The notes under the pieces are model-generated. The model did no database searches. It saw nothing but the letters and a program-made list of their open reading frames with translations, and was not told the origin of the DNA. 64,000 nucleotides of DNA from Limisalsivibrio acetivorans (GTDB lineage Bacteria > Chrysiogenota > Deferribacteres > Deferribacterales > Geovibrionaceae). The DNA is taken from the NCBI RefSeq assembly GCF_000421105.1, contig NZ_ATWF01000001.1:1212930-1276929 (forward strand). Reading direction: 5' to 3'. The translations under genes were made by a program, and so were the position numbers. Shown here one piece after another: positions 3-51,313 of this stretch (within the stretch, counting starts at the first letter, position 1; each line of letters starts with the position of its first letter).

Positions 3-185
3 CCCCTTGCAACGGCGCAGTATATCGTTAGAGAAAAGGATGACACGGGGGGTTCCGGCGCAAACTTCATCGTAAAATGGAGTGCAAAGGAGAAGGTTCC
101 CCAGCCTGTAACCGAATCGGTGATGATCGGCGCAAAGTCATCCCTTGGCATCTCCTTCGTATCCCCCGGAGTTATCATCAAGTAA
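3..185 (+). CDS. C-terminal end of an unrecognised protein (partial)
   Basis: An open frame enters from the left edge and ends at TAA 183-185, giving about 60 residues. The tail is polar and beta-prone (near the end: SSLGISFVSPGVIIK) with no motif I recognise. A strong rho-independent terminator lies 25 bases after the stop, which supports this being the real end of a transcribed gene. The rest of the gene lies outside the window, so no function is proposed. Confidence 0.6.
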   Translation, partial: PLATAQYIVREKDDTGGSGANFIVKWSAKEKVPQPVTESVMIGAKSSLGISFVSPGVIIK

Positions 186-210
186 TTTTTTCTATATAAT
201 AGCAAAATAA

Positions 211-237
211 AAGGCCGGCTATAATACCGGCCTTTTT
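211..237 (+). terminator. Rho-independent terminator
   Basis: The arms AAGGCCGG and CCGGCCTT enclose a short A/T loop and are followed by a T run. It sits just after the partial gene ending at 185. The arms are symmetrical, so it may also serve the dehydrogenase gene that ends at 270 on the other strand. Confidence 0.8.
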
Positions 238-269
238 CAGCCCACAGGCTGTGTATTAACAAATTACTT

Positions 270-1118
270 TCATTTAAACATTTTATAAACCACAGAAAAA
301 TCCTCTTCACTCAGACCCCTGCGGAAGGTTTCTGCATAAAGCTCCTTGGCTGCTCCTGCTGTGTATAGGGGCATCTTAACATCCTCCGCCAACCTCTGAA
401 GGTAGCCAAGATCCTTATATATTGCCGATGCAGAGAAGTGTGCGGAGAAATCCTCATCGGCGAGCTTCTGCTTCTTTGCATCGAATACAAGGGATTTTCC
501 ACCCCCTGTGGAGAGAACATCGATAACATCGCTCTTATCAAGGCCAGCCTTCTCACCAAAGGCCACAGCCTCTGCTATGGATGTCATGAAAACGCCGAGG
601 AGCATGTTGTTTATTACCTTCATTCTTGAAGCCGCCCCCGGCTCCCTGAGATAGAATACATCCCTTCCGATGGTGTCGAAGAAGGCTTTATGCTCATTGA
701 AGGCGGGTTCATCGCCGCTTACCACGACAACAAGCATTCCTTTCTTAGCAGGTACAACGCTTCCGAGAACCGGAGCCTCAAGGTAGCTGAACCCCTCCGC
801 TTCTGCTATCTCGTAAACCTCAAGAACCTCTTTATAGTGGTTTGTGGAGGTGTCGATAATGGTCTTCCCCTTGAGATCCGCATCAAGAAGACCGCCGTCC
901 ATGCCGAAGACATCGAGTACGGCATCTGTATCGAAAAGGTTAAGGACAATGGTATCCGACTTCTCCGCAACCTCTTTGGGTGAAACGGATATATCCGCAC
1001 CTAACCCGTCCGCCTTCTTTATGGTTCTGTTCCATACGGTGAGGTCGTAGCCCTCGTCCATCAGCCTTTCTGCGAGTGCTTTCCCCAGATTTCCCAGTCC
1101 TATGAATCCTGTTTTCAT
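270..1118 (-). CDS. NAD(P)-dependent beta-hydroxyacid dehydrogenase (3-hydroxyisobutyrate dehydrogenase family)
   Basis: The 282-residue protein is normal length for the family. It starts with the dinucleotide-binding Rossmann motif GFIGLGNLG (residues 4-12). It carries the family substrate loop EAPVLGSVVPAKKG (about 114-127) and the catalytic-lysine region KVINNMLLG (about 167-175). Family members reduce or oxidise small beta-hydroxyacids or semialdehydes such as 3-hydroxyisobutyrate, tartronate semialdehyde, glyoxylate or succinic semialdehyde in the cytoplasm. The sequence alone does not fix the substrate; the loop resembles the glyoxylate/succinic-semialdehyde reductase branch. The ATG at 1118 has an AAAGGAG-like site upstream. 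It is a single-gene unit divergent from rtcB. Confidence 0.88.
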   Translation of the reverse strand: MKTGFIGLGNLGKALAERLMDEGYDLTVWNRTIKKADGLGADISVSPKEVAEKSDTIVLNLFDTDAVLDVFGMDGGLLDADLKGKTIIDTSTNHYKEVLEVYEIAEAEGFSYLEAPVLGSVVPAKKGMLVVVVSGDEPAFNEHKAFFDTIGRDVFYLREPGAASRMKVINNMLLGVFMTSIAEAVAFGEKAGLDKSDVIDVLSTGGGKSLVFDAKKQKLADEDFSAHFSASAIYKDLGYLQRLAEDVKMPLYTAGAAKELYAETFRRGLSEEDFSVVYKMFK

Positions 1119-34355: not shown

Positions 34356-35321
34356 ATGAAAAGACGATGTACACTAGTAGTTATCGACCAGGAAAGCATG
34401 AACGAGGTAAAGAGTTTCTCTCTTAATCTCGGTGTAGTCCGCCTCAGCATACTTATAATAATAGTCTTTTCGCTCATATCCACCGCTTCTTTTTATTTAC
34501 TCAACTACCTTTACAACGAACGTATAGACGCCCTCATCTTCCGTGACGAAAACTTACACCTGCGCAACCAGATAGACGTATATGCCGACGAAATAAGCAA
34601 AATCAACATGCAGGAGGAGTACCTTGATATGCTAGGCAACAGGGTTCTCGGTCTTGCAACTCTATACAAAAGCGAGATTAACCTCGAAAACACCTCCAGC
34701 ACAGGCGGGCGAGAACTCAACCTTCCCAGTACAGATAATAAACCAGACCTCTACTCTGATAAGGCACTCATGCCTGCTATTGAGAATATTAGCACTGCGC
34801 TCAAATCAAGGGCCTCAACCCTTGATGAACTGGCAGACCTCATCGAGGAGCAGGATCTGCTCGGCCAGAGTACACCCATGGGTTCCCCCGTTACCGGGTG
34901 GATCTCCAGCAAATTCGATTTCCGCTACTCCCCCTTCAGCGGCAAACTTGTTTTTCATCAGGGTCTAGACATTGCCGCAAGGTACGGACTTGATGTTCTG
35001 GCCACCGCCAAGGGTGTTGTGGTATTTGCCGGCAATAAATATGGATACGGCAAGATGATTACCATAGATCACGGCTACGGCTATCTCACCAGATACGCAC
35101 ACAACAGCCGCCTCGGTGTTAAAGAGGGGGACATCGTGGAGAGGGGGGATGTCATAGCCAAGGTAGGCTCCACAGGGCACAGCACAGGCCCCCATGTTCA
35201 TTATGAGATCCTCGTTAACGGAATCCCCGTTAACCCCATGCACTTTCTATATGATTACCAAACGCTTATGAGCAAACTGACGTCCAAGAGAAGGATTAAC
35301 GTCAACGCTCTCGACTACTGA
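34356..35321 (+). CDS. Membrane-anchored LytM/M23 peptidase (paralogue 1)
   Basis: A 321-residue bitopic protein: short cytoplasmic start (MKRRCTLVVIDQESMNEVKSFSLNLG), one TM at about 30-52, then a periplasmic coiled coil (about 55-105). The M23 domain (about 180-310) has zinc ligands in FHQGLDIAARYG (His and Asp) and GPHVHYEILVNG (HxH). The residues look intact, so it may be a real endopeptidase acting on peptidoglycan crosslinks. It closely resembles the protein at 43661-44587, including the N-terminal segment, so they are duplicates. Such proteins resemble the Csd3/MepM-like or bactofilin-linked M23 group. Confidence 0.9.
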   Translation: MKRRCTLVVIDQESMNEVKSFSLNLGVVRLSILIIIVFSLISTASFYLLNYLYNERIDALIFRDENLHLRNQIDVYADEISKINMQEEYLDMLGNRVLGLATLYKSEINLENTSSTGGRELNLPSTDNKPDLYSDKALMPAIENISTALKSRASTLDELADLIEEQDLLGQSTPMGSPVTGWISSKFDFRYSPFSGKLVFHQGLDIAARYGLDVLATAKGVVVFAGNKYGYGKMITIDHGYGYLTRYAHNSRLGVKEGDIVERGDVIAKVGSTGHSTGPHVHYEILVNGIPVNPMHFLYDYQTLMSKLTSKRRINVNALDY

Positions 35322-35903: not shown

Positions 35904-36575
35904 ATGCTATATTTTAGAATGCCGATTAACCGTAAAGAATCTTCCAGGAAAAACCCGAGCCTGTGGATTAATGGGATAAATAACTGCGGCTTCAGTATTA
36001 TCGAGCTGACCATAACTCTCGTGCTCATTGGCACCATCCTCATCCTCGTACTTAAGGGCTTTGATATGGTAACGAAAGCAAGATACAAGTCAGAGCTGAA
36101 CCGTGTGCACAAGATACGTACCGCCGTATCAATCTATTATGAGAATCATAACACTCTCCCGGGGAACACCTTCCAAAACGGAACCTTCATCGATACGAGT
36201 TCTTACCAAGCAAAGCAGGAGCTGACCTCCGCAGGACTACTGCGCCCGGCAGACTTTCAGCTCGAGGTAGGCGAAGGCTTCTACGCTTTTCGAAGCTGTA
36301 AAGCCGGAACCGGAGGCTATTTCATCAATGGAGGCACAGGGCTTTGCATAACCCCCACGGAAACCTACGAAGAGACCGAAGGGAATAGGGTACTCAGCGA
36401 CGAGCTTTGGTGCGTTCTTGAGACGGGGGAGGATGACGGCAGGCTCAACGGCGGAGACATAAGAGCCTGGGTAAACGGCTTGGAGGATGAAACCCTGGAC
36501 ACTCTCGGCGGCCTCGAGCAATGCAGGGACTATGCTGACTCTGCAGTCCATGAGTTCGCAGTAAAGATCTGGTAA
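35904..36575 (+). CDS. Type IV prepilin-like protein
   Basis: A 223-residue protein with a long charged leader. A prepilin cleavage motif follows, Gly before FSIIELTITLVLIGTILILVLKG: Phe at +1, Glu at +5, hydrophobic helix at about 30-52. The C-terminal domain carries a probable disulfide pair (FRSCKAGTGG and GTGLCITP). It would be processed by a prepilin peptidase and assembled into a pilus or type II-like pseudopilus. Two starts are possible (35904 and 35919); neither has a clear ribosome site. PilB and PilC in this window are its likely partners, although other pilin genes are absent. Confidence 0.82.
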   Translation: MLYFRMPINRKESSRKNPSLWINGINNCGFSIIELTITLVLIGTILILVLKGFDMVTKARYKSELNRVHKIRTAVSIYYENHNTLPGNTFQNGTFIDTSSYQAKQELTSAGLLRPADFQLEVGEGFYAFRSCKAGTGGYFINGGTGLCITPTETYEETEGNRVLSDELWCVLETGEDDGRLNGGDIRAWVNGLEDETLDTLGGLEQCRDYADSAVHEFAVKIW

Positions 36576-36777: not shown

Positions 36778-39700
36778 TTATTCAATAATCACACCCTCAA
36801 TAGCTGTTTTGACCTCATCGGACAGGTCCGCCGGAGGTGCGGGGATATCTCTCTGGTCGGGGAGCTTCACAGGATCGAAGAGATCCTTTGCTCCACCTAC
36901 AAATACAGCACTCCCCTTACCCACACGGGTTCCTCCATCCGCACCTGCCTTCCATGCCTCCGCAGAGCCGTTACGCACAACGCTGAGATCAACAGGCATC
37001 CAGAGGGTTCCCTCTATCTCGGCAAAATACTTATCCGCATCGGGGATCGAGGCGGGCGACATGCCTGTATCTGCCAGGGCGATAAGCCGAACGTTTGATA
37101 CCGCAAAGGCCGTATCGATACCCATGGCATCGGCAAGGGTTGCAAAAAGGATGAAGAGGGAATCGTAATCACCACTCTTTTCATGGATAGTTTCCACAGG
37201 AAATTTTACCTGAGCCGCATCACCACCTCTGCCGTAGTTTTTAACGAAGGAGCTGGGGCGCTCTTTCAGCTTAATCCCTTCTCTACCCATAGCCTCCAGA
37301 ATTGCAAGGGTCTGCACAGCTTTGGGTGAGAGATTACCTGATTCAACGGAGCTCACAGTGTTTCTTATCTGCTCTGCATACCTTGCGATAACCGGCTCCT
37401 CAGAGTTAATGAGCATACCTATCTTATAGCCGTTGTCCCATACTATTCTGTCTATTCCGTAGACCTGCATAAAGCCTTCGGATGTTATCTTTTTTTCATC
37501 TCCATCAAGCTCATACACCGCCGACAAGTCAAGTTTGAACCGTTTGTTACCCTTCAAACAACAAAGGGCAGAGCCGAAATCGAGATTAATCTCCGCCGTG
37601 GCTTTATCCTTTACAGGCACAATATTAAACTCATGGACCCTTCTTTCAGGCAGCAGACCCTCAACTCTGAGATTCACCGCAACACCGCTCACAGCCTTTT
37701 CACCCGGATTGATAACCTCAACCCGCATGAGGGGCTTATTCTGGTAATCAGCCGCTTCGGCGGCAAAGACTGTGCGTATACCTGATACTGCCAATTTTAA
37801 CGGGGGCACAGGCTTTTTCTCGGGCACTTTTTCCGGCTTTGCCTCAGCCTTATTCTCCACTCCCTTTGCACCTGCTTTAACTGCTTCTGTCACAACAGCA
37901 GTACCAGCGGCGGCAACCCCTTTGGATGCAGCCTCTGCAGCTGCGGCACCATTGGCAACGGTTTTACCCGCTCTCTCAGCCGCTTTTTCCATGACTGGAT
38001 CACCCTTGGCTTCGGTTTTTTTGTCCTGCATTTCCGGCGCAGGCTTATTACTCACAGGCTCGCTCTTCTGCTGTGCAGGCTTAGGAGCGGGCTTATTGCT
38101 CTCATAGGGGACAACAACTGCCTTCTCTGTGCTCTGCGGGGGATTCTCACCCTTCACGATCGCCTTTTCTGCCTCTATCATTCGGCTCTCAAAGAAATCG
38201 TCCACCTGAGCGAAAGCGGTTTTCATTGAATCACGCTTCCCTATCTCATCGTTCATGTGATATGTGACAACACCCTTGGTTATATTGAAGAGCTGGCGCC
38301 CTTCGGGCATCCTTATACCCCGAATCTCGAGGTTTGCGCTAATCATCCTGAGATTGTTGCTTACTCTACTGTCAGACGTTGAGAAATCCTCGCTGACAAG
38401 CAGAAGAAGCTGGGCACCTTTGCCCGCAACGGCTGTTTCATATGCGCTCACAGACCTTCCGGCGGAGGGTATCTCATATGCTTTAAAGCCCATATCTTTA
38501 AGGCTTCCCCGCACATATCTGAGGGAGTGTGAGGTTGCACCTGTATAAGCCACGGCGGCGGAGATCCCCCGCTTGGCATCACCGGCTAGGTTAAGCCCCT
38601 TCAAGTCCTCCTGAAGCTTCTTGTCGTTAATGAAAACCATATATGAACCATCGAAGCGGTTTTTGCCGAAATTTGTGTATACGGGCATCCCCATACTGGC
38701 GTACTCGTCAGCCCGGGAAAGTATCTTCGAGTTCAGGGCGAAGAGCTTATCCCTGTCCAGCCTGCTCATGACTCGAGAGAGATGGTCCTTCACCGCACGC
38801 TTAAGTGCACGGTCCGCCGCAATATTATCAAGCCCTTCGCCGGAACGGACTATGGGGAGCTTAACGTTCGCAACACGCACCACCAGACCCTCCGAGGCCT
38901 TGGACTCGTTATAGCCGAAGAGGGACGAGAGTGTTATTCCCGCACTGCTCCTGTCACCCTCGAGGAGACTGCGGGCCTCTTCGGTGTTTCCGGCGCTGTG
39001 TCTTATAAACGCTATCACCGGAGCGGAGGAGCGGTATTCATCGGGAAAAAGCGACTTAAGAATGTCCGCATATCTTCCCGCTTCCACAATATCCTGATCC
39101 TCCAGAGCGAGGGAGATTTTAAGGAGAAGCTCGTTCTTTGATTCCTGCTTAAGCTCGGCGAATGTCCTTCCGAAGGGGACGATCATCTCCGCTGTAACAT
39201 CGCCCGAGACCCTCTCGAGCAGGTCGAAGGACTCCCTTTCGCCGATATCAATGACCTTAGCATGGAATGGGCTGGCTGTTTCTATATCCATCCCGTTTCC
39301 TTCGAGCGTTATTCGACCCGCACTGAGGGATGCTTCACCATCCGCAGAGAGTGCAAGGGTACTCTGCCCGAGGGTGGTGTTATCGAGATGAACGGAACTG
39401 CCGGAGGCATTGACCGCCGTGCCGCAGTAGAGGAAACGTCCGGAATCTATATTCACCTCAGAATCGTTCAAGGCTTTGAGCCCCTCGGTGAAGTTCTCCA
39501 TCTTAAAACCCTTGAGGGTGATTGTGGAGTTTATAATTCGGAAGCTGTGTCCACCCCGCATGGTTATATAATCTGCCGAACCGGCATTTATCCCGGCATC
39601 GATGAAGCTTACGGTATAGTTCTCACCCCGGAAGGTTATGTTTTCGTCACCTGAGCCCTCCGCTTTGAGTGTACCCATAATATTCAGGGAGGAACCTTCG

Positions 39701-41016
39701 CCAAAACGTACAGCCGTTCCCTTCTCTATGGTGAGGGTTACCCCCTTGGAGACTGTGGCGGAGCCGTTTATAATATACGGGCTTCCGTAGGCGTAGAATG
39801 TTGTATCCTCAATGATATCGGGTGAAACATCCGTAGGGCCGGGGCGGACAACCATCTTCGCCTGTTCGATGTACCTGCCGATGTTCTCCGCCTGGTCACG
39901 GGCACGGACACGGTAGTAGTAACGGTTTCCGTACTCCACGCTTCCGTCAACGAATTCGGGGATGGATGTAGTTCCGATCTCTTTAAAGGTTGTGTCGGAT
40001 AGATCCGCCTTCTCTATTATGTAATCCTGTATGTCCTCATCTTCGGGTTTCTCCCAGAAAAGCCTTACACCCTCCTCTGTGGAGGATGAGCTGAGGCTCA
40101 GGGGGGCACCCGGCGGAACAGTATCCACAGTTATAGTTCTCGGAACAATGTATCTGGTTTCCATCCGTTTGTCCGGATCGTTCAGATACACAACAATCTG
40201 CTGGTCGTTCCAGTTATTACCCGAGGCTACTACATACTTGCCCAGGTAGTGACCAGGCTCCATCTCGCTCATGCTGATACCTTTCTGCTCGTCACCTATG
40301 TTGAAATAGGCGCTTAGCCCCTCCTCTCCTTTAAGAGAGACAAGTACCTCATCTTCGGACTTAAAGGGACTGTCCAAAGAGTTAGTAACAACGGAAAAAA
40401 CCGCAGGGGGCTTCTCCTTGGCGAGGGATTGAGGCTCGGGCATCTCCTTTGCGATGGCCCGGCAAAGCTTATCGAAGAGCTGTATCTTTACGCTATCACG
40501 CAGAACGAGGGCGGATGTTACCGCTGTAGAGATAGCGGACCACGGAGACAGTGGTACTCCACCAGACTGCTTAACAACCTTGTCCTCCTTTTCCCACAGG
40601 ATGTTACCCGTTTCCGCATCGACTAATTTAACACGCATGCGAACAGTGAGGCTTCCGTAGACACCGGCGTAGATCTTATCTATGCCGATAACGTTTACGT
40701 AGAGCAGGCCACCCACGCCCAATGTATCAGAGAGTTCTCTGTGGGAGAATTCGGTCCACTTCTTCCCGGTCTTCTTCTCGAGGAGAAAGATACGGTTGTT
40801 TACATCGTTTATCTCAACATCCACATAGTTTTTCGAGCCTATGTGATTGAAGAAGGTTATCCTCAACTCCTCCAGATCCTCATGGTTGCCGTCCCCCTGT
40901 ACGGGGAGAACGGCGATGGATGTCGGAAGATTCAGTTCGGTGGCAAATGCTCCGCCGGCTAAGAATACCGCCAGCAGAACCGCCAGAATTAAAAGCTTAG
41001 AAGTTCGTATAAACAT
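36778..41016 (-). CDS. Giant exported mosaic protein (DUF799-like, FN3, beta-helix, transglutaminase-like)
   Basis: 1412 residues. Signal peptide about 1-26 (ending GGAFA). Residues about 30-195 resemble GNA1162/DUF799-type CsgG-related domains (SIAVLPVQGDGNHEDLEELRITFFNHI, GGLLYVNVIGIDKIYAGVYG). An FN3-like domain spans about 300-392 (RLFWEKPEDEDIQDYIIEKADL). About 400-600 is a right-handed beta-helix (GVTLTIEKGTAVRFGEGSSLNIMG and later rungs). A Pro/Lys/Ala-rich linker spans about 985-1100. The end (about 1255-1360) looks like a transglutaminase fold (ETIHEKSGDYDSLFILFATLADAMGIDTAFAV), with Tyr where the catalytic Cys is expected. ATG 41016 lies inside the end of the upstream lipoprotein gene. 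Likely periplasmic or surface; function unknown. Confidence 0.85.
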   Translation of the reverse strand: MFIRTSKLLILAVLLAVFLAGGAFATELNLPTSIAVLPVQGDGNHEDLEELRITFFNHIGSKNYVDVEINDVNNRIFLLEKKTGKKWTEFSHRELSDTLGVGGLLYVNVIGIDKIYAGVYGSLTVRMRVKLVDAETGNILWEKEDKVVKQSGGVPLSPWSAISTAVTSALVLRDSVKIQLFDKLCRAIAKEMPEPQSLAKEKPPAVFSVVTNSLDSPFKSEDEVLVSLKGEEGLSAYFNIGDEQKGISMSEMEPGHYLGKYVVASGNNWNDQQIVVYLNDPDKRMETRYIVPRTITVDTVPPGAPLSLSSSSTEEGVRLFWEKPEDEDIQDYIIEKADLSDTTFKEIGTTSIPEFVDGSVEYGNRYYYRVRARDQAENIGRYIEQAKMVVRPGPTDVSPDIIEDTTFYAYGSPYIINGSATVSKGVTLTIEKGTAVRFGEGSSLNIMGTLKAEGSGDENITFRGENYTVSFIDAGINAGSADYITMRGGHSFRIINSTITLKGFKMENFTEGLKALNDSEVNIDSGRFLYCGTAVNASGSSVHLDNTTLGQSTLALSADGEASLSAGRITLEGNGMDIETASPFHAKVIDIGERESFDLLERVSGDVTAEMIVPFGRTFAELKQESKNELLLKISLALEDQDIVEAGRYADILKSLFPDEYRSSAPVIAFIRHSAGNTEEARSLLEGDRSSAGITLSSLFGYNESKASEGLVVRVANVKLPIVRSGEGLDNIAADRALKRAVKDHLSRVMSRLDRDKLFALNSKILSRADEYASMGMPVYTNFGKNRFDGSYMVFINDKKLQEDLKGLNLAGDAKRGISAAVAYTGATSHSLRYVRGSLKDMGFKAYEIPSAGRSVSAYETAVAGKGAQLLLLVSEDFSTSDSRVSNNLRMISANLEIRGIRMPEGRQLFNITKGVVTYHMNDEIGKRDSMKTAFAQVDDFFESRMIEAEKAIVKGENPPQSTEKAVVVPYESNKPAPKPAQQKSEPVSNKPAPEMQDKKTEAKGDPVMEKAAERAGKTVANGAAAAEAASKGVAAAGTAVVTEAVKAGAKGVENKAEAKPEKVPEKKPVPPLKLAVSGIRTVFAAEAADYQNKPLMRVEVINPGEKAVSGVAVNLRVEGLLPERRVHEFNIVPVKDKATAEINLDFGSALCCLKGNKRFKLDLSAVYELDGDEKKITSEGFMQVYGIDRIVWDNGYKIGMLINSEEPVIARYAEQIRNTVSSVESGNLSPKAVQTLAILEAMGREGIKLKERPSSFVKNYGRGGDAAQVKFPVETIHEKSGDYDSLFILFATLADAMGIDTAFAVSNVRLIALADTGMSPASIPDADKYFAEIEGTLWMPVDLSVVRNGSAEAWKAGADGGTRVGKGSAVFVGGAKDLFDPVKLPDQRDIPAPPADLSDEVKTAIEGVIIE

Positions 41017-43030
41017 CAAGATACTTGCCCGCCTTCATTTCAAGGGGTGCTGTTTCGAGCCCCTTTCTTTCCATGAGAACAATAGCATCGGCGTATCTCT
41101 CTATGGCGGTGTTTATATTACCCTCCGCCTCAAGCTTCTGCGCCTGCGCAACGTACTGCTTTTCGGGGTTAGTAAACATCTTCTGGAGGTTGCCTGTTAT
41201 CTCCTTGATGATGCTGGCCTGAACCCTGTTGCTCATCTCGATGTCCGTGGGAAGGTCTGCTACCTTCATGGGAACCTTGAATGAACCAAGTTCAACACCG
41301 CCGCTAGATTCATCCTTAGCCTCAACCTTTGCCTTGGCTGTGTTATTGTAGATGATATTTCCACGGGATGTCTCAACCACACGGTAGCTCACAGTGGCAT
41401 AACTTGTTTTTTCATAATAGCTTATATCGTATTCAACATATTCATAAACTGGCTTTTCGATGTATTTCTCAGGAGCAGGGGGAACGGGTTTCTGCTCCGC
41501 CTTGAGCTTTTCGGATTCACGAACCCAGTCATCGTACTCAATGTTTCTGATCTTCTCCGTACCCACCTGCACACGAACCTTTTTCATGGAATCCTGAACT
41601 GAAGTCTCTGTGTCTGCATCAAGCACTTCGCCCATAAGCAGGTAGTCTGCACTTTGTATCTGGAATGATGAGAGGTCGCCGGAGTTCCCCTGGGTAATGT
41701 TTCCTGCAACGGCGAGTTCGTATTCTCTCATAAGCACCTCAACTGCTCCCCTTTCGATAATCCGGACATCGCCGGAGAGCTCGTTGTGCATGGAAAGCAT
41801 TATGTTGGATGTTATAAGTCCGCCCATCTCGGGAGCGGATGCGGGTGTTTTAAAGGGAATAACGGCGATACTCTTCATGGAACGCTCAAGTATTTTGTTG
41901 GTAACATTGCGCATTTTGAGCTTTATATCAGGGTAATTAGGCGAGAGTTCTGCAATCATACTGTAGAAGAAGTATGCTGCGCCGTAGTTGTAGTTTTCCT
42001 CCGCCTTGCCTGCAATGAAGAAGAGGTTGTTATAGTAGTACTCGAGGTCGTTTCTTGGTATGTTCACCATGTGCTGGGACTTGGGGGGTAGCTTACGGAG
42101 GAGTTCGAAAGCTCTGTCAAACTGCTCGTATGCCTGTCTGTACAGTTCCTGCTCCACCAGCTCTACACCGCCGAGAAAGTAATCCTCAACGAGCTGGATC
42201 CTTGTCTGCTCTGCCAGTTTTTCAACCTCGGCCTTAGCACCGGGGAATTGTGCGGCTCCCTCATAGTAGCTGAGTGCTTTTTCATACTCACCGGCCTGCT
42301 TCATCTCTTCGGCACGCTTGATGTAGTATTCCGCCCTCCCCTTCTCCTTGGATTCGGCGAGGAGTCGCTGGGCTTTTTCATCACCGGGTGTTATCTCGAG
42401 TAGTCTGGCGAGGATAGCTTCAACACCGACCCACTCGTCCCTGGCGGCCATGGATTCGACCTTGGCGATCTGATGAGCGTATATCTCCTTGCGTTTAGTA
42501 TCGATGAGAGGGTCAACCAACTCTGGTGCAAGGTTTCTTATTGAGGAGAGTTTGTTGTATCCGGCGTAAGGCTTGCCGGAGTTAATCAGCCTATCTGCCT
42601 CGGTCTGAACCTCTTTAACAGCTTTGGCAGTGAGCTCTCTCTGCTTTTGTATTTCATTTGTATACTTATCAATCTCGGCTTCATTAACACCATACTTCTT
42701 AGCATTATCAAGTCTGGTTTCGGCATATTCGATATCTTTATAGGGTATGGGTGGTTCGGCGGAAAGTCGGTTTCGTACCTGGCTCATTTGCTGTTCGTAG
42801 AGGTCCTGCTTAACATTCTCTGCCTGGGTACAGAAGTCCTGATTATCAGGGTTTTTAGCACATAGGCTTTCGAGAATAGGTAGAGCCTGTTCCTGTTTGC
42901 CCGAGCTTGCCATTACGACGGCCTGATCGAAGGCTGTTTTGTCAGCGTTCTGTGCGCATGAGATGCTCATGGCCAATAGAACGGTGATGAGTAGATATGA
43001 TAATTTTGTGTAGGAATTGAATAATATCAT
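40997..43030 (-). CDS. TPR lipoprotein with CsgG-like domain
   Basis: 677 residues. The lipoprotein signal ends at the lipobox MSISC (acylated Cys at about 25). Residues about 30-380 are helical repeats of TPR type (for example AEYYIKRAEEMKQAGEYEKALSYYEGAAQF), with coiled-coil parts. A CsgG-like domain follows (about 388-490: KSIAVIPFKTPASAPEMGGLITSNIM, IIERGAVEVLMREYELA). The CsgG family forms outer-membrane secretion channels or related envelope assemblies. A YXE/Tyr-rich stretch (YIEKPVYEYVEYDISYYEKT) and a final TPR-like segment complete it. It overlaps the giant protein gene by about 20 bases, so the two are co-translated. ATG 43030 follows AGGGG. Confidence 0.83.
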   Translation of the reverse strand: MILFNSYTKLSYLLITVLLAMSISCAQNADKTAFDQAVVMASSGKQEQALPILESLCAKNPDNQDFCTQAENVKQDLYEQQMSQVRNRLSAEPPIPYKDIEYAETRLDNAKKYGVNEAEIDKYTNEIQKQRELTAKAVKEVQTEADRLINSGKPYAGYNKLSSIRNLAPELVDPLIDTKRKEIYAHQIAKVESMAARDEWVGVEAILARLLEITPGDEKAQRLLAESKEKGRAEYYIKRAEEMKQAGEYEKALSYYEGAAQFPGAKAEVEKLAEQTRIQLVEDYFLGGVELVEQELYRQAYEQFDRAFELLRKLPPKSQHMVNIPRNDLEYYYNNLFFIAGKAEENYNYGAAYFFYSMIAELSPNYPDIKLKMRNVTNKILERSMKSIAVIPFKTPASAPEMGGLITSNIMLSMHNELSGDVRIIERGAVEVLMREYELAVAGNITQGNSGDLSSFQIQSADYLLMGEVLDADTETSVQDSMKKVRVQVGTEKIRNIEYDDWVRESEKLKAEQKPVPPAPEKYIEKPVYEYVEYDISYYEKTSYATVSYRVVETSRGNIIYNNTAKAKVEAKDESSGGVELGSFKVPMKVADLPTDIEMSNRVQASIIKEITGNLQKMFTNPEKQYVAQAQKLEAEGNINTAIERYADAIVLMERKGLETAPLEMKAGKYLDVYTNF

Positions 43031-43660
43031 GGAAACCACCCCTGTTTTGTTATCTTATAAGGTGCAGTAATATTACCCGATCCCCGATTTGATTTCAATC
43101 CAATATAAAAGACTTGGGTGATCCGATTATTCCTGTTTGGATGGTGCTGGAAATGATCAGCGGTTCATTATTAAGTATTGCAATTATTTATGGCTATTCC
43201 GTCTTGTTTTGTCTTTGTTGTCAGAGTAATGTGAGATTTGTTCCTTTGATTGTTAATAATTGAAATCATTTACTTCGTTTCGGATGAGAAATAAGAGATA
43301 CGAATAATAAGAGATTTCCCAATTCGACCAGTCAGCCTAGCTTGTCCAAACTCACTTAGTCAGTACGCCAAATTAGCCAGACAGTTGTAAGAAAATAACT
43401 AATGAAATCTAACCAGCTCACCTGAAGCACTTATTAATCAGCCTACCTGATGTTCCTAAGCAAATTTACCAGCCCACCAGACTATCTTGCCAGTCAATGC
43501 AGCCAGACAAGCCCACCAGACTATCTTGCCAGTCAATGCAGCCAGACAAGCCCACCAGCCTATCTTGCCAGTCAATGCAACCAGACCAGACCACCAGACA
43601 AGCCCACCAGCCTATCTTGCCAGTCAATGCAACCAGACCAGCCCACCAGACTAGCCCACC
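43031..43660. other. 630-base gap with CCAG-rich low complexity and a tandem repeat
   Basis: The left half (to about 43320) is ordinary A/T-rich intergenic sequence. From about 43325 it becomes rich in CCAG, CCACC and GTCAG words and ends in the 39-bp tandem repeat at 43471-43653. It separates the LytM gene from the lipoprotein gene, both on the minus strand. I see no gene. Confidence 0.6.
43471..43653. repeat. 39-bp tandem repeat, four full copies plus partial
   Basis: Copies start at 43471, 43510, 43549 and 43601, with a partial fifth at 43640. Each contains AGCCCACCAG, TATCTTGCCAG and TCAATGCA. A 13-base partial unit (43588-43600) separates copies 3 and 4. Copies 1 and 2 are identical; 3 and 4 share variants (CC before TATC; AACCAGACC at the end), suggesting stepwise duplication. 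Confidence 0.93.
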
Positions 43661-48432: not shown

Positions 48433-50103
48433 ATGAGCAAGAAACCTGTCGGCCAGCTGCTGAAGGAGCTGGGATACGTCACCGAGGAGCAGATACAGGT
48501 CGCCCTTGAGGTAAAAAAGATCCGCCAGAAACTCCTCGGCGAGATACTTATCGAACTATCCTTTGTTTCTCCCAGGGAGATCTCCTACGCCATTTCACAG
48601 CAGAGCGGCAAGGAGTTCATGGATGTTAACGAGGTCCCCCCTTCCAAGGAGGCACTGAAGCTATTCGACAGGAATACAGCGAAGCAGCTGGACATGCTCC
48701 CTATCAATGTCAGCGGCGATAAGTTTACCGTCGCCATGAGCGACCCTTTTAACATCAACACAATAGATATCATCAAACGACGCACAGGGCTGAACCCCGA
48801 GGTCTACATCTCCGACAGGGAAAGCATACAAAAGAATATTGAGATTAACTACTATCTACTCGAAAGCCCCATTGACAAAGAGATACAGAAGATACTCGAC
48901 AGAGGGGGCTCTGGAAACGTTGGGCAGGATCTCCCCAAACTCATAGAGCTTATATTCAACAACGCCATAATCGACCGTGCTACGGATGTGCATATCTCCC
49001 CGGAAGAATACGCCTCCCACGTTTTCTTCCGCATCGACGGTATAATGCGGCACTATTTCGCCATACCTAAACCGCTCCACTCTGCCCTGATATCAAGGAT
49101 TAAGATCCTGAGCCAGTTGGATATTGCCGAACAGAGGCTTCCGCAGGACGGCTCGCTTGTTCACACATTCTTCGACGAGGACTTCGATGTGAGGGTCTCC
49201 ACCATCCCCACCCCCCATGGCGAGAATGCGGTTATGAGGATCCTTTCCAAGAACCTTTCTCTGTTTAACCTCGAAAGCCTCGGCTTCGAAAAGGATGTTC
49301 AAGACGGACTAAAGGAGCAATTCAACAGACCCCACGGTATCTTCCTTGTGACCGGACCCACCGGCTCGGGTAAAACAACTACACTCTACGCCGCACTGAG
49401 AAAGCTTAATTCACTCCAAAGGCGTGTTTTGACCGCTGAGGATCCCATAGAATACCGCTTCCCGTTCATCAAGCAGACTCAGGTTAACGATAAAGCGGGG
49501 TACCATTTCGCCACGGCGATGCGTGCATTCCTGCGTCAGGACCCCGATGTTATCCTTCTCGGTGAAATGCGGGATGAAAAGACGGCGGAGATGGCCATGA
49601 GGGCGGCTATCACAGGCCACCTAGTCCTCTCCACCCTGCACACCAACGACGCCGTAACAGCAATACCCAGACTTATGGACATGGAGGTTAAGGACTATCT
49701 CATATCCTCCGGTGTTGCGGGAATACTCGCACAGAGACTCGTGCGTAAGGTCTGCCCCTTCTGCAAAGAAGAAAGGAGTATGAAGGGTGCTGAACTGCTT
49801 AATTACGGTGTAACAACAGAAATGCTCACCAGACAGGGGATAGAGCACGATTCAGATGTTACGTACATGGCTGGCAACGGCTGTGAACAGTGCAGGGAAT
49901 CGGGTTATTCAGGACGTTCCGTTATATCCGAACTCCTTATTATCGATGATGAAATCGGCGATATGATCGTTACAGGCGCCACACCCCTCGCTATCAATAA
50001 TATGGCCATAACAAAGGGGATGAAGACAATACGTGAAGATGGGCTTATAAAGGTTCTGAAAGGTGTTACAACACCTGAAGAAATTAAGCGGGTGGCGATG
50101 TAA
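48433..50103 (+). CDS. pilB: Type IV pilus extension ATPase PilB (GspE family)
   Basis: A 556-residue hexameric ATPase that powers pilus assembly. The N-terminal MshE/GSPII_E-type domain (KKPVGQLLKELGYVTEEQIQVALEVKKIRQ) can bind c-di-GMP in relatives. The ATPase core has Walker A GPTGSGKTTTL, the Asp box (VLTAEDPIEYRF), Walker B VILLGEMRDEKTAEMA and the His box (GHLVLSTLHTNDA). The four-cysteine zinc motif (CPFC...CEQC) is intact. The stop is four bases before pilC. Retraction ATPase PilT is not in the window. Confidence 0.94.
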   Translation: MSKKPVGQLLKELGYVTEEQIQVALEVKKIRQKLLGEILIELSFVSPREISYAISQQSGKEFMDVNEVPPSKEALKLFDRNTAKQLDMLPINVSGDKFTVAMSDPFNINTIDIIKRRTGLNPEVYISDRESIQKNIEINYYLLESPIDKEIQKILDRGGSGNVGQDLPKLIELIFNNAIIDRATDVHISPEEYASHVFFRIDGIMRHYFAIPKPLHSALISRIKILSQLDIAEQRLPQDGSLVHTFFDEDFDVRVSTIPTPHGENAVMRILSKNLSLFNLESLGFEKDVQDGLKEQFNRPHGIFLVTGPTGSGKTTTLYAALRKLNSLQRRVLTAEDPIEYRFPFIKQTQVNDKAGYHFATAMRAFLRQDPDVILLGEMRDEKTAEMAMRAAITGHLVLSTLHTNDAVTAIPRLMDMEVKDYLISSGVAGILAQRLVRKVCPFCKEERSMKGAELLNYGVTTEMLTRQGIEHDSDVTYMAGNGCEQCRESGYSGRSVISELLIIDDEIGDMIVTGATPLAINNMAITKGMKTIREDGLIKVLKGVTTPEEIKRVAM

Positions 50104-50107
50104 ATAT

Positions 50108-51313
50108 ATGGGAACATTTGAGATAAAAGCCGTTGACAAGGGCGGTAAGAAGATAACGAAAACCATTGAGGTGGAGAACGAAGAGGAGCTTGTTCCGTAT
50201 CTTGAACATGCGGGCCTTAACGTAATCTCCATCCACCGGGCACCCTTCTATGCAAAATACACTAGAAGCAGGGGGAGGATAAAAACCCAGGAGGTTATTG
50301 AGGTTCTAGAGAACCTGCACCTCGTTATCCGCTCCGGACTCCCCACCGTAACCGGGTTGCAAGACCTTGCAAAGGATGCAGAAAACCCGGCGATGAAGGA
50401 GATATTGACCGATCTAAGCTTCCGTGTGCAGATGGGGATGAACTTCTCCAAAGCGATGGAGAAATATAAAAAGACCTTCGGTGAAGTGGTTATAAACCTT
50501 ATAAAGATCGGCGAAGAAACCGGCAAGCTTGATGAAACACTCCACGACGCTGTCGAGCATTTGAAAAAACTTGAAGACCTTAAGGCAAAGGCCAAACAGG
50601 CTCTAATCTATCCCAGCTTCGCCTTTGTGGCATTATCCGGTGCGCTTATATTCTGGCTCGTTTTCGTTATGCCCAAGATGATGGATGCGTTCAGCGCATT
50701 CGATATAGAGCTCCCCTTTATCACAAGGGCAATCATGGCACTCTCCGTCTTCACTCAAAAATACATCGTCCTCATCACCGTGCTGCTTATAGGGGCAGTC
50801 ATACTGATCAATGTGCTCCGTAAAACATCCAAGGACTTCAAACTAATCACAGACCAGATAACGCTTCGTCTTCCGGTCTTCGGTGTTATCATCACAAACT
50901 TCAACTTCGCCTTCTTCGCAGAGTATGTAAGGCTGATGATCGCCGCCGGACTCCCACTCTATCAGGCACTTTCACTCATGGAGGGGAGCCAGAAGAACCT
51001 GGTATATAAGTCGGCCAGCGAAAGGATCCGTGAGGATATGTCCATAGGCTCCAGCTTCTCAGATGCCCTGTCAAAGCAGGATCTCTACCCATCCCTGATT
51101 ATCAGGATGGTAAATATTGGTGAGCAGACCGGACACCTCGAAGAGCAGCTGGATAACGTCGCAAAATACTACTATCAGAAGGTAGACCACATCGCCGCTA
51201 ATATATCAAAGCTTATAGAGCCGCTTATAATAGGCTTCGTGGGCGGGTTTATGCTTATCATTTTCATCGGCCTTCTCGGCCCGATATTCAACCTGATAAC
51301 GGGCTTAAGCTGA
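50108..51313 (+). CDS. pilC: Type IV pilus inner-membrane platform protein PilC (GspF family)
   Basis: 401 residues. Two repeated GspF domains (about 65-190 and 270-395), each followed by a membrane segment. Typical pieces are VIEVLENLHLVIRSGLPTVTGLQDLAKD, FGEVVINLIKIGEETGKLDETL, FAFFAEYVRLMIAAGLPLYQALSLMEG and MVNIGEQTGHLEEQLDNVAKYY. It couples PilB to the growing pilin helix. ATG 50108 is four bases after the pilB stop (overlapping GGGTGG as ribosome site); the frame starts further upstream inside pilB but is not used. Together with pilB it forms an operon. Confidence 0.94.
   Translation: MGTFEIKAVDKGGKKITKTIEVENEEELVPYLEHAGLNVISIHRAPFYAKYTRSRGRIKTQEVIEVLENLHLVIRSGLPTVTGLQDLAKDAENPAMKEILTDLSFRVQMGMNFSKAMEKYKKTFGEVVINLIKIGEETGKLDETLHDAVEHLKKLEDLKAKAKQALIYPSFAFVALSGALIFWLVFVMPKMMDAFSAFDIELPFITRAIMALSVFTQKYIVLITVLLIGAVILINVLRKTSKDFKLITDQITLRLPVFGVIITNFNFAFFAEYVRLMIAAGLPLYQALSLMEGSQKNLVYKSASERIREDMSIGSSFSDALSKQDLYPSLIIRMVNIGEQTGHLEEQLDNVAKYYYQKVDHIAANISKLIEPLIIGFVGGFMLIIFIGLLGPIFNLITGLS

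Follow-up and report, generated by a model that had tools for sequence, protein, structure and literature searches.

Overlapping genes in Limisalsivibrio acetivorans encode a TPR–CsgG-type lipoprotein and an exported fusion protein with GNA1162-like and FlgT-like domains

Two overlapping genes, here called A and B, lie in the stretch of 64,000 nucleotides from Limisalsivibrio acetivorans that was analysed (the window), in a Deferribacterota genome of 2.97 Mb. The locus raises the question of what a lipoprotein with TPR repeats and a CsgG-like domain might form with the giant exported protein encoded behind it, and whether the latter would be its partner or its cargo. The features on which our answer draws are collected in Table 1.

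Table 1. Features of the A/B gene pair and of its two products, in window positions and protein residues
Feature	Residues	Window positions	Strand	Remark
Gene A		41000..43030	minus	677-aa lipoprotein; ATG at 43030, stop ends at 40997
A, signal/lipobox	Cys25			
A, TPR solenoid	about 29-384			
A, CsgG-type domain	386-618			one long beta-hairpin, 463-495 / 523-553
A, C-terminal TPR helices	after CsgG-type domain			
A/B overlap		40997..41016	minus	20 bp, translational-coupling type
Gene B		36781..41016	minus	1412-aa exported fusion protein; ATG at 41016
B, GNA1162-like (DUF799), CsgG superfamily	25-200	40417..40944	minus	most conserved part of B
B, Ig-like + FN3 + right-handed beta-helix	213-590	39247..40380	minus	
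B, FlgT-like (FlgT_N/M, LipL46-like) module	710-955	38152..38889	minus	hhalign and Foldseek
B, Pro/Lys/Ala-rich disordered linker	961-1070	37807..38136	minus	pLDDT about 25
B, beta-sandwich + degenerate transglutaminase-like domain	1076-1370	36907..37791	minus	
Gene B stop codon		36778-36780	minus	

The gene pair and the fold of protein A

Both reading frames are intact in the window (2,089 codons) and lie on the minus strand at the positions that the preliminary description had reported, the overlap that it put at about 20 bases being exactly that long. The sequence GGGGTGG precedes the ATG of gene A. Upstream, a tandem repeat array with periods of 39 and 52 bp and 94-97% matches occupies positions 43471-43660, between A and a LytM peptidase gene.

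Protein A had been described as a lipoprotein with TPR repeats and a CsgG-like domain, and our analyses bear this out. Its matches to TPR (2e-7) and CsgG (3e-7) are both above the Pfam cut-off, and the lipobox cysteine is invariant across 17 homologues, the window lipobox reading SISC with an atypical Ser at -3. In the AlphaFold model of A, built with five sequences in the alignment (mean pLDDT 82.9), a TPR solenoid is followed by a CsgG-type alpha/beta domain and then by C-terminal TPR helices. Structure prediction had been proposed as a check for a CsgG-like fold, and Foldseek indeed matched the model to CsgG (4uv3/4uv2, 6l7a) and to HpaA (8t8d) with a probability of 1.0; for CsgG, the TM-scores by target length are a modest 0.3-0.5. 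When solved structures were searched by sequence with the A profile, all matches were either to TPR proteins or probably due to chance, and CsgG was not among them; the fold search did recover it.

Judged from strand order, the single long hairpin of A sits where CsgG has its first membrane hairpin, and three residues of its loop, Asn496, Trp502 and Pro520, are invariant in the 17 homologues. No second hairpin is predicted in the single-chain AlphaFold model of A. The hairpin strands are largely hydrophilic: a hydrophobic-face measure, which is noisy across relatives and was used only jointly with the model, gives -0.33 and -0.13 for the two strands in the window, whose best faces are still charged, compared with +0.56 and +0.48 for the two hairpins of E. 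coli CsgG, which are charge-free. Because the model has one hairpin, largely hydrophilic, and no second one, A probably should not be filed as a CsgG channel.

Domain order and fusion origin of protein B

From its N terminus, protein B consists of a signal peptide, a GNA1162-like domain, an Ig domain, an FN3 domain, a beta-helix, a few TPR-like helices, a FlgT-like module, a linker and a beta-sandwich with a transglutaminase-like domain. Several of these parts had been read correctly from the letters of the sequence. Concerning the proposed signal peptide and CsgG-related DUF799/GNA1162-like domain at the N terminus, the GNA1162-like (DUF799, PF05643) match of the window protein is below the Pfam cut-off (3e-4), whereas homologues of B are above it (1.1e-12 and 7.5e-7), and profile-profile comparison of the N-terminal domain with this family gives 98.9%. 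The FN3 domain has profile support (titin FN3). The beta-helix is supported by the NosD profile in homologues and by matches of pectate lyase PelI to the structure model of B, which for reasons of length covers residues from 213 on. The Pro/Lys/Ala linker, at about residues 960-1070, is disordered in the same model.

Two aspects of B were overlooked in the preliminary description. The first is the FlgT-like module, located between the beta-helix/TPR part and the linker. By hhalign it matches FlgT-like proteins of Deltaproteobacteria-like loci with 95.9% probability (E 5e-9, 213 columns), whereas other hhalign comparisons for the module give 2% or less. Support independent of hhalign comes from Foldseek, which matched the B model to FlgT (3w1e, E 3.9e-7) and to the LPHT ring (8z5n).

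The second is the origin of B. Because both of its halves occur as separate genes in Deltaproteobacteria-like genomes, B is a fusion of genes encoded separately elsewhere. In eight such genomes (G051, G105, G180, G252, G278, G265, G251 and G255) the C-terminal half forms an exported protein of its own, a transglutaminase-like/TPR protein of ~820-880 aa that is encoded directly downstream of A and matches B at E 5e-88 or better, a Rosetta-stone fusion. The N-terminal half is found in G051 as a 784-aa GNA1162-Ig-FN3-beta-helix-TPR lipoprotein, on a contig other than that of A. In most of the eight genomes the separate C-terminal-half gene is followed by a gene for a small protein of 125-138 aa, which at two loci (L112, L114) is homologous to the gene behind the fused B in Calditerrivibrio and at the remaining loci was assigned from position and size only.

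Homology to relatives in which the domain is intact supports the transglutaminase-like end proposed for B (DUF553, 20.2 bits with the cut-off at 20.5; GDCDD...PGH motif), but the catalytic Cys and His are gone in the window, where GDYDS replaces GDCDD and there is no PGH. Both residues are also lost in the B proteins of G019 and G020, which have GDGDD, and B of G027 ends ahead of the transglutaminase-like part. The fused B of Calditerrivibrio keeps GDCDD and PGH, and the separate, unfused proteins have GDCDD and, in most cases, PGH. Since this region of the B model is of low confidence (pLDDT about 40-60), the transglutaminase-like assignment is drawn from homology. In separate proteins, the beta-sandwich and transglutaminase-like module aligns with positions 12-328 of 1903, in the N-terminal part, of NCBIfam NF058533 (anti-phage protein ProA), at 2.4e-15 and 3.3e-16. 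Such matches, far below the cut-off, lie at L114:6282-8744 and L162:2164-4629, and a literature search turned up no paper on ProA. Proteins of ~1000-1200 aa in other genomes (L129, L130) share the transglutaminase-like module with its GDCDD.

Distribution and neighbours of the pair

The preliminary description had made its reading depend on whether A and B stay neighbours across related genomes. We surveyed the occurrence of A and of the B halves in two phyla. In the Deferribacterota, A is present in 8/51 genomes and B in 7/51, and the two genes are adjacent in 7/7 genomes carrying B, which runs off the contig end in G008; the remaining genome, G018, has A without B. Single in-frame stops occur in two metagenome-assembled Denitrovibrio genomes, TAA in B of G019 and TAG in B of G020, also in A of G020; these may represent decay or assembly error. 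Given the interrupted frames, some members of the family may be able to do without the pair. In the phylum of G051 (198 genomes; E below 1e-18 for A and below 1e-50 for the N-terminal half), A is present in 17 genomes, the N-terminal half in 21 and both in 10, a co-occurrence with a Fisher p of 2.3e-7 that is not corrected for kinship.

The gene that follows A differs among clades, with the type of partner tracking the A phylogeny. In a fully supported clade of nine A genes the downstream partner is an exported CsgG-like/FN3-repeat protein, and several of the nine have FlgT-like, GNA1162 and CsgG genes nearby. Other A genes adjoin GNA1162, FlgT-like and true CsgG genes. At one locus (L161), the separate parts lie side by side in a seven-gene cluster of two FlgT-like genes, A, CsgG-FN3, a small protein, GNA1162 and CsgG. 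In five members of the class of G051, A is beside neither partner. Because G018 lacks B and some Deltaproteobacteria-like A genes stand beside neither partner, A works or persists alone in these genomes.

The suggestion that the LytM peptidase encoded upstream opens the cell wall for the pair did not hold up. An orthologue is present in 12/12 family genomes, pair-less ones included; in three of the latter (G022, G024 and G025) it occupies the same place, beside prolyl-tRNA synthetase, and the Calditerrivibrio pair is located elsewhere, without LytM. The LytM gene, whose presence does not depend on that of the pair, is a bystander. A second LytM (M23) gene, which shares about 43% identity with the upstream copy, lies on the opposite side of the pair (34356-35321). 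Genes for an MshE/PilB-like ATPase, a GspF-like protein and a pilin-like protein flank the pair region at 48433-51313 and 35904-36575. A leucine aminopeptidase gene beside the Calditerrivibrio pair was set aside as a housekeeping gene (50/51 genomes). A role in anti-phage defence was also rejected, as PADLOC gave no match for A and B of the window; for Calditerrivibrio B it gave one weak Csm4 match, probably by chance.

Possible assemblies and likeness to known systems

CsgG, GNA1162 and FlgT-type domains repeatedly keep company, separately or fused, which suggests that the partners of A are components of one outer-membrane-associated assembly; B, which itself carries CsgG/FlgT-type domains, looks like a component rather than cargo. 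Our tentative preference, to which we give somewhat less than an even chance, is that A and B are the two subunits of a periplasmic ring or scaffold that is anchored in the outer membrane and is of the CsgG/FlgT (H-ring) kind. The lipid of A would hold it in the outer membrane, while its TPR solenoid would recruit partners and its CsgG-type domain would oligomerise, presumably into a ring by analogy with the superfamily. B, translated via the overlap, would stack on A through its GNA1162-like and FlgT-like domains, with its Ig, FN3 and beta-helix parts reaching outward. The transglutaminase-like domain, with catalytic residues kept in the separate and Calditerrivibrio forms, would in the window be a dead binding or structural module. 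Against this scaffold stand the modest CsgG TM-scores of A, the A genes beside neither partner, the absence of B from G018 and the interrupted frames of G019 and G020.

An unlikely but better surviving alternative is that B is a surface adhesin or fibre-like protein, anchored or displayed by the lipoprotein A and formerly cross-linked or clipped by its transglutaminase-like domain. The Ig, FN3 and beta-helix parts and the long Pro/Lys/Ala linker would suit such a protein, A is partnered by a CsgG/FN3-repeat exported protein in another clade, and the Cys and His are intact in Calditerrivibrio and most separate forms. However, GNA1162-like and FlgT-like domains are modules of the periplasmic ring type, a known surface-sorting signal was not identified in B, and B of G027 exists without the C-terminal part.

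We consider it distinctly improbable that the pair is a relic being dismantled, in which an ancestral system of A, transglutaminase-like/TPR and GNA1162 proteins lost its enzyme and is decaying in the family. Such decay would be consistent with the patchy occurrence of A in the phylum, the loss of Cys and His in the window, G019 and G020, the missing domain of G027, the in-frame stops and the lack of B in G018. The pair in the window, however, has intact frames and has retained its overlap, and B shares 57% identity with B of G019 over the first 314 residues, which suggests that purifying selection continues there.

Still less probable is that A acts as a secretion channel of the CsgG type, with B as its exported cargo, even though A matches CsgG in Pfam and in structure, and B combines a signal peptide with surface-type domains (Ig, FN3 and beta-helix). 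The A model has one long hairpin, not two, with strand faces that are still charged; B holds the same kind of domains as A; and the gene after A varies by clade, G018 having A without B. Of the preliminary reading, in which B was partner or cargo of an envelope complex, the CsgG-superfamily fold in A and in the N terminus of B and the conserved neighbourhood are borne out, whereas the single hydrophilic hairpin speaks against a channel with B as cargo. Least probable of all is that the pair serves the MSHA-like type IV pilus/type II secretion genes nearby as an accessory, because, although it adjoins a contiguous MSHA-like cluster (pilin, secretin and related genes) in G018, G019, G020 and G027, pilus and pair do not co-occur and each is found without the other: the cluster marker is present without the pair in seven family genomes, the pair without the marker in Calditerrivibrio, and in the window genome the marker is about 0.6 Mb away (G000:C1:1866887).

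Returning to the ring or scaffold, a broader proposal, possible but doubtful, is that A is the founding member of a hitherto undescribed family of TPR-CsgG lipoproteins in at least two phyla, forming CsgG/FlgT-type outer-membrane rings with an interchangeable exported partner. In that case the partner would be a transglutaminase-like enzyme whose catalytic residues are in place, a repeat protein of the CsgG-FN3 type or, here, a giant fusion with a dead structural module. The fusion itself points to the parts of one assembly and makes the hypothetical genes scattered over Deltaproteobacteria-like genomes open to testing as a system. In it, ring-type domains of curli secretion (CsgG) and flagella (FlgT) are joined together and with a former enzyme, and this enzyme is met in four states: on its own with its residues intact, fused with its residues intact, fused but dead, and lost.

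As the preliminary description supposed, no described system fits the pair, at least none that turned up in the open-access literature searched or in Pfam, NCBIfam and PADLOC. ProA (NF058533) matches the separate transglutaminase-like proteins at 58 bits against a cut-off of 1500, and window B not at all. Myxococcus TraC (MXAN_0804), which aids outer membrane exchange, is a TPR outer-membrane lipoprotein of ~600 aa with an uncharacterised C-terminal domain (PMC8546572). An A homologue matches the TraC model (NF040658) weakly, at 45 bits against a cut-off of 500, with the best stretch in the TPR part; the model has no match in the window genome, nor in control genomes, and hence gives no proof of absence.

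Likenesses are also found among the ring-type proteins. CsgG, the curli secretion lipoprotein, resembles A in being a lipoprotein with the CsgG alpha/beta domain. However, A also carries a TPR solenoid of ~350 residues as well as C-terminal TPRs, and has one mostly hydrophilic hairpin in its model where CsgG has two that span the membrane; no csgE, csgF, csgA or csgB was recognised among the genes neighbouring the pair. The GNA1162/DUF799 lipoproteins of Neisseria belong to the same domain family as the N-terminal domain of B, which in B has at least five further domains behind it and, before it, an ordinary signal peptide with no lipobox Cys. In Vibrio, FlgT belongs to the H ring (PMC6504787). 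No flagellar genes were recognised beside B, but its FlgT-like module has, by both profile and structure, the FlgT N/M-type fold of this ring of the flagellar basal body and of LipL46-like lipoproteins, here embedded in a fusion protein of 1412 aa.
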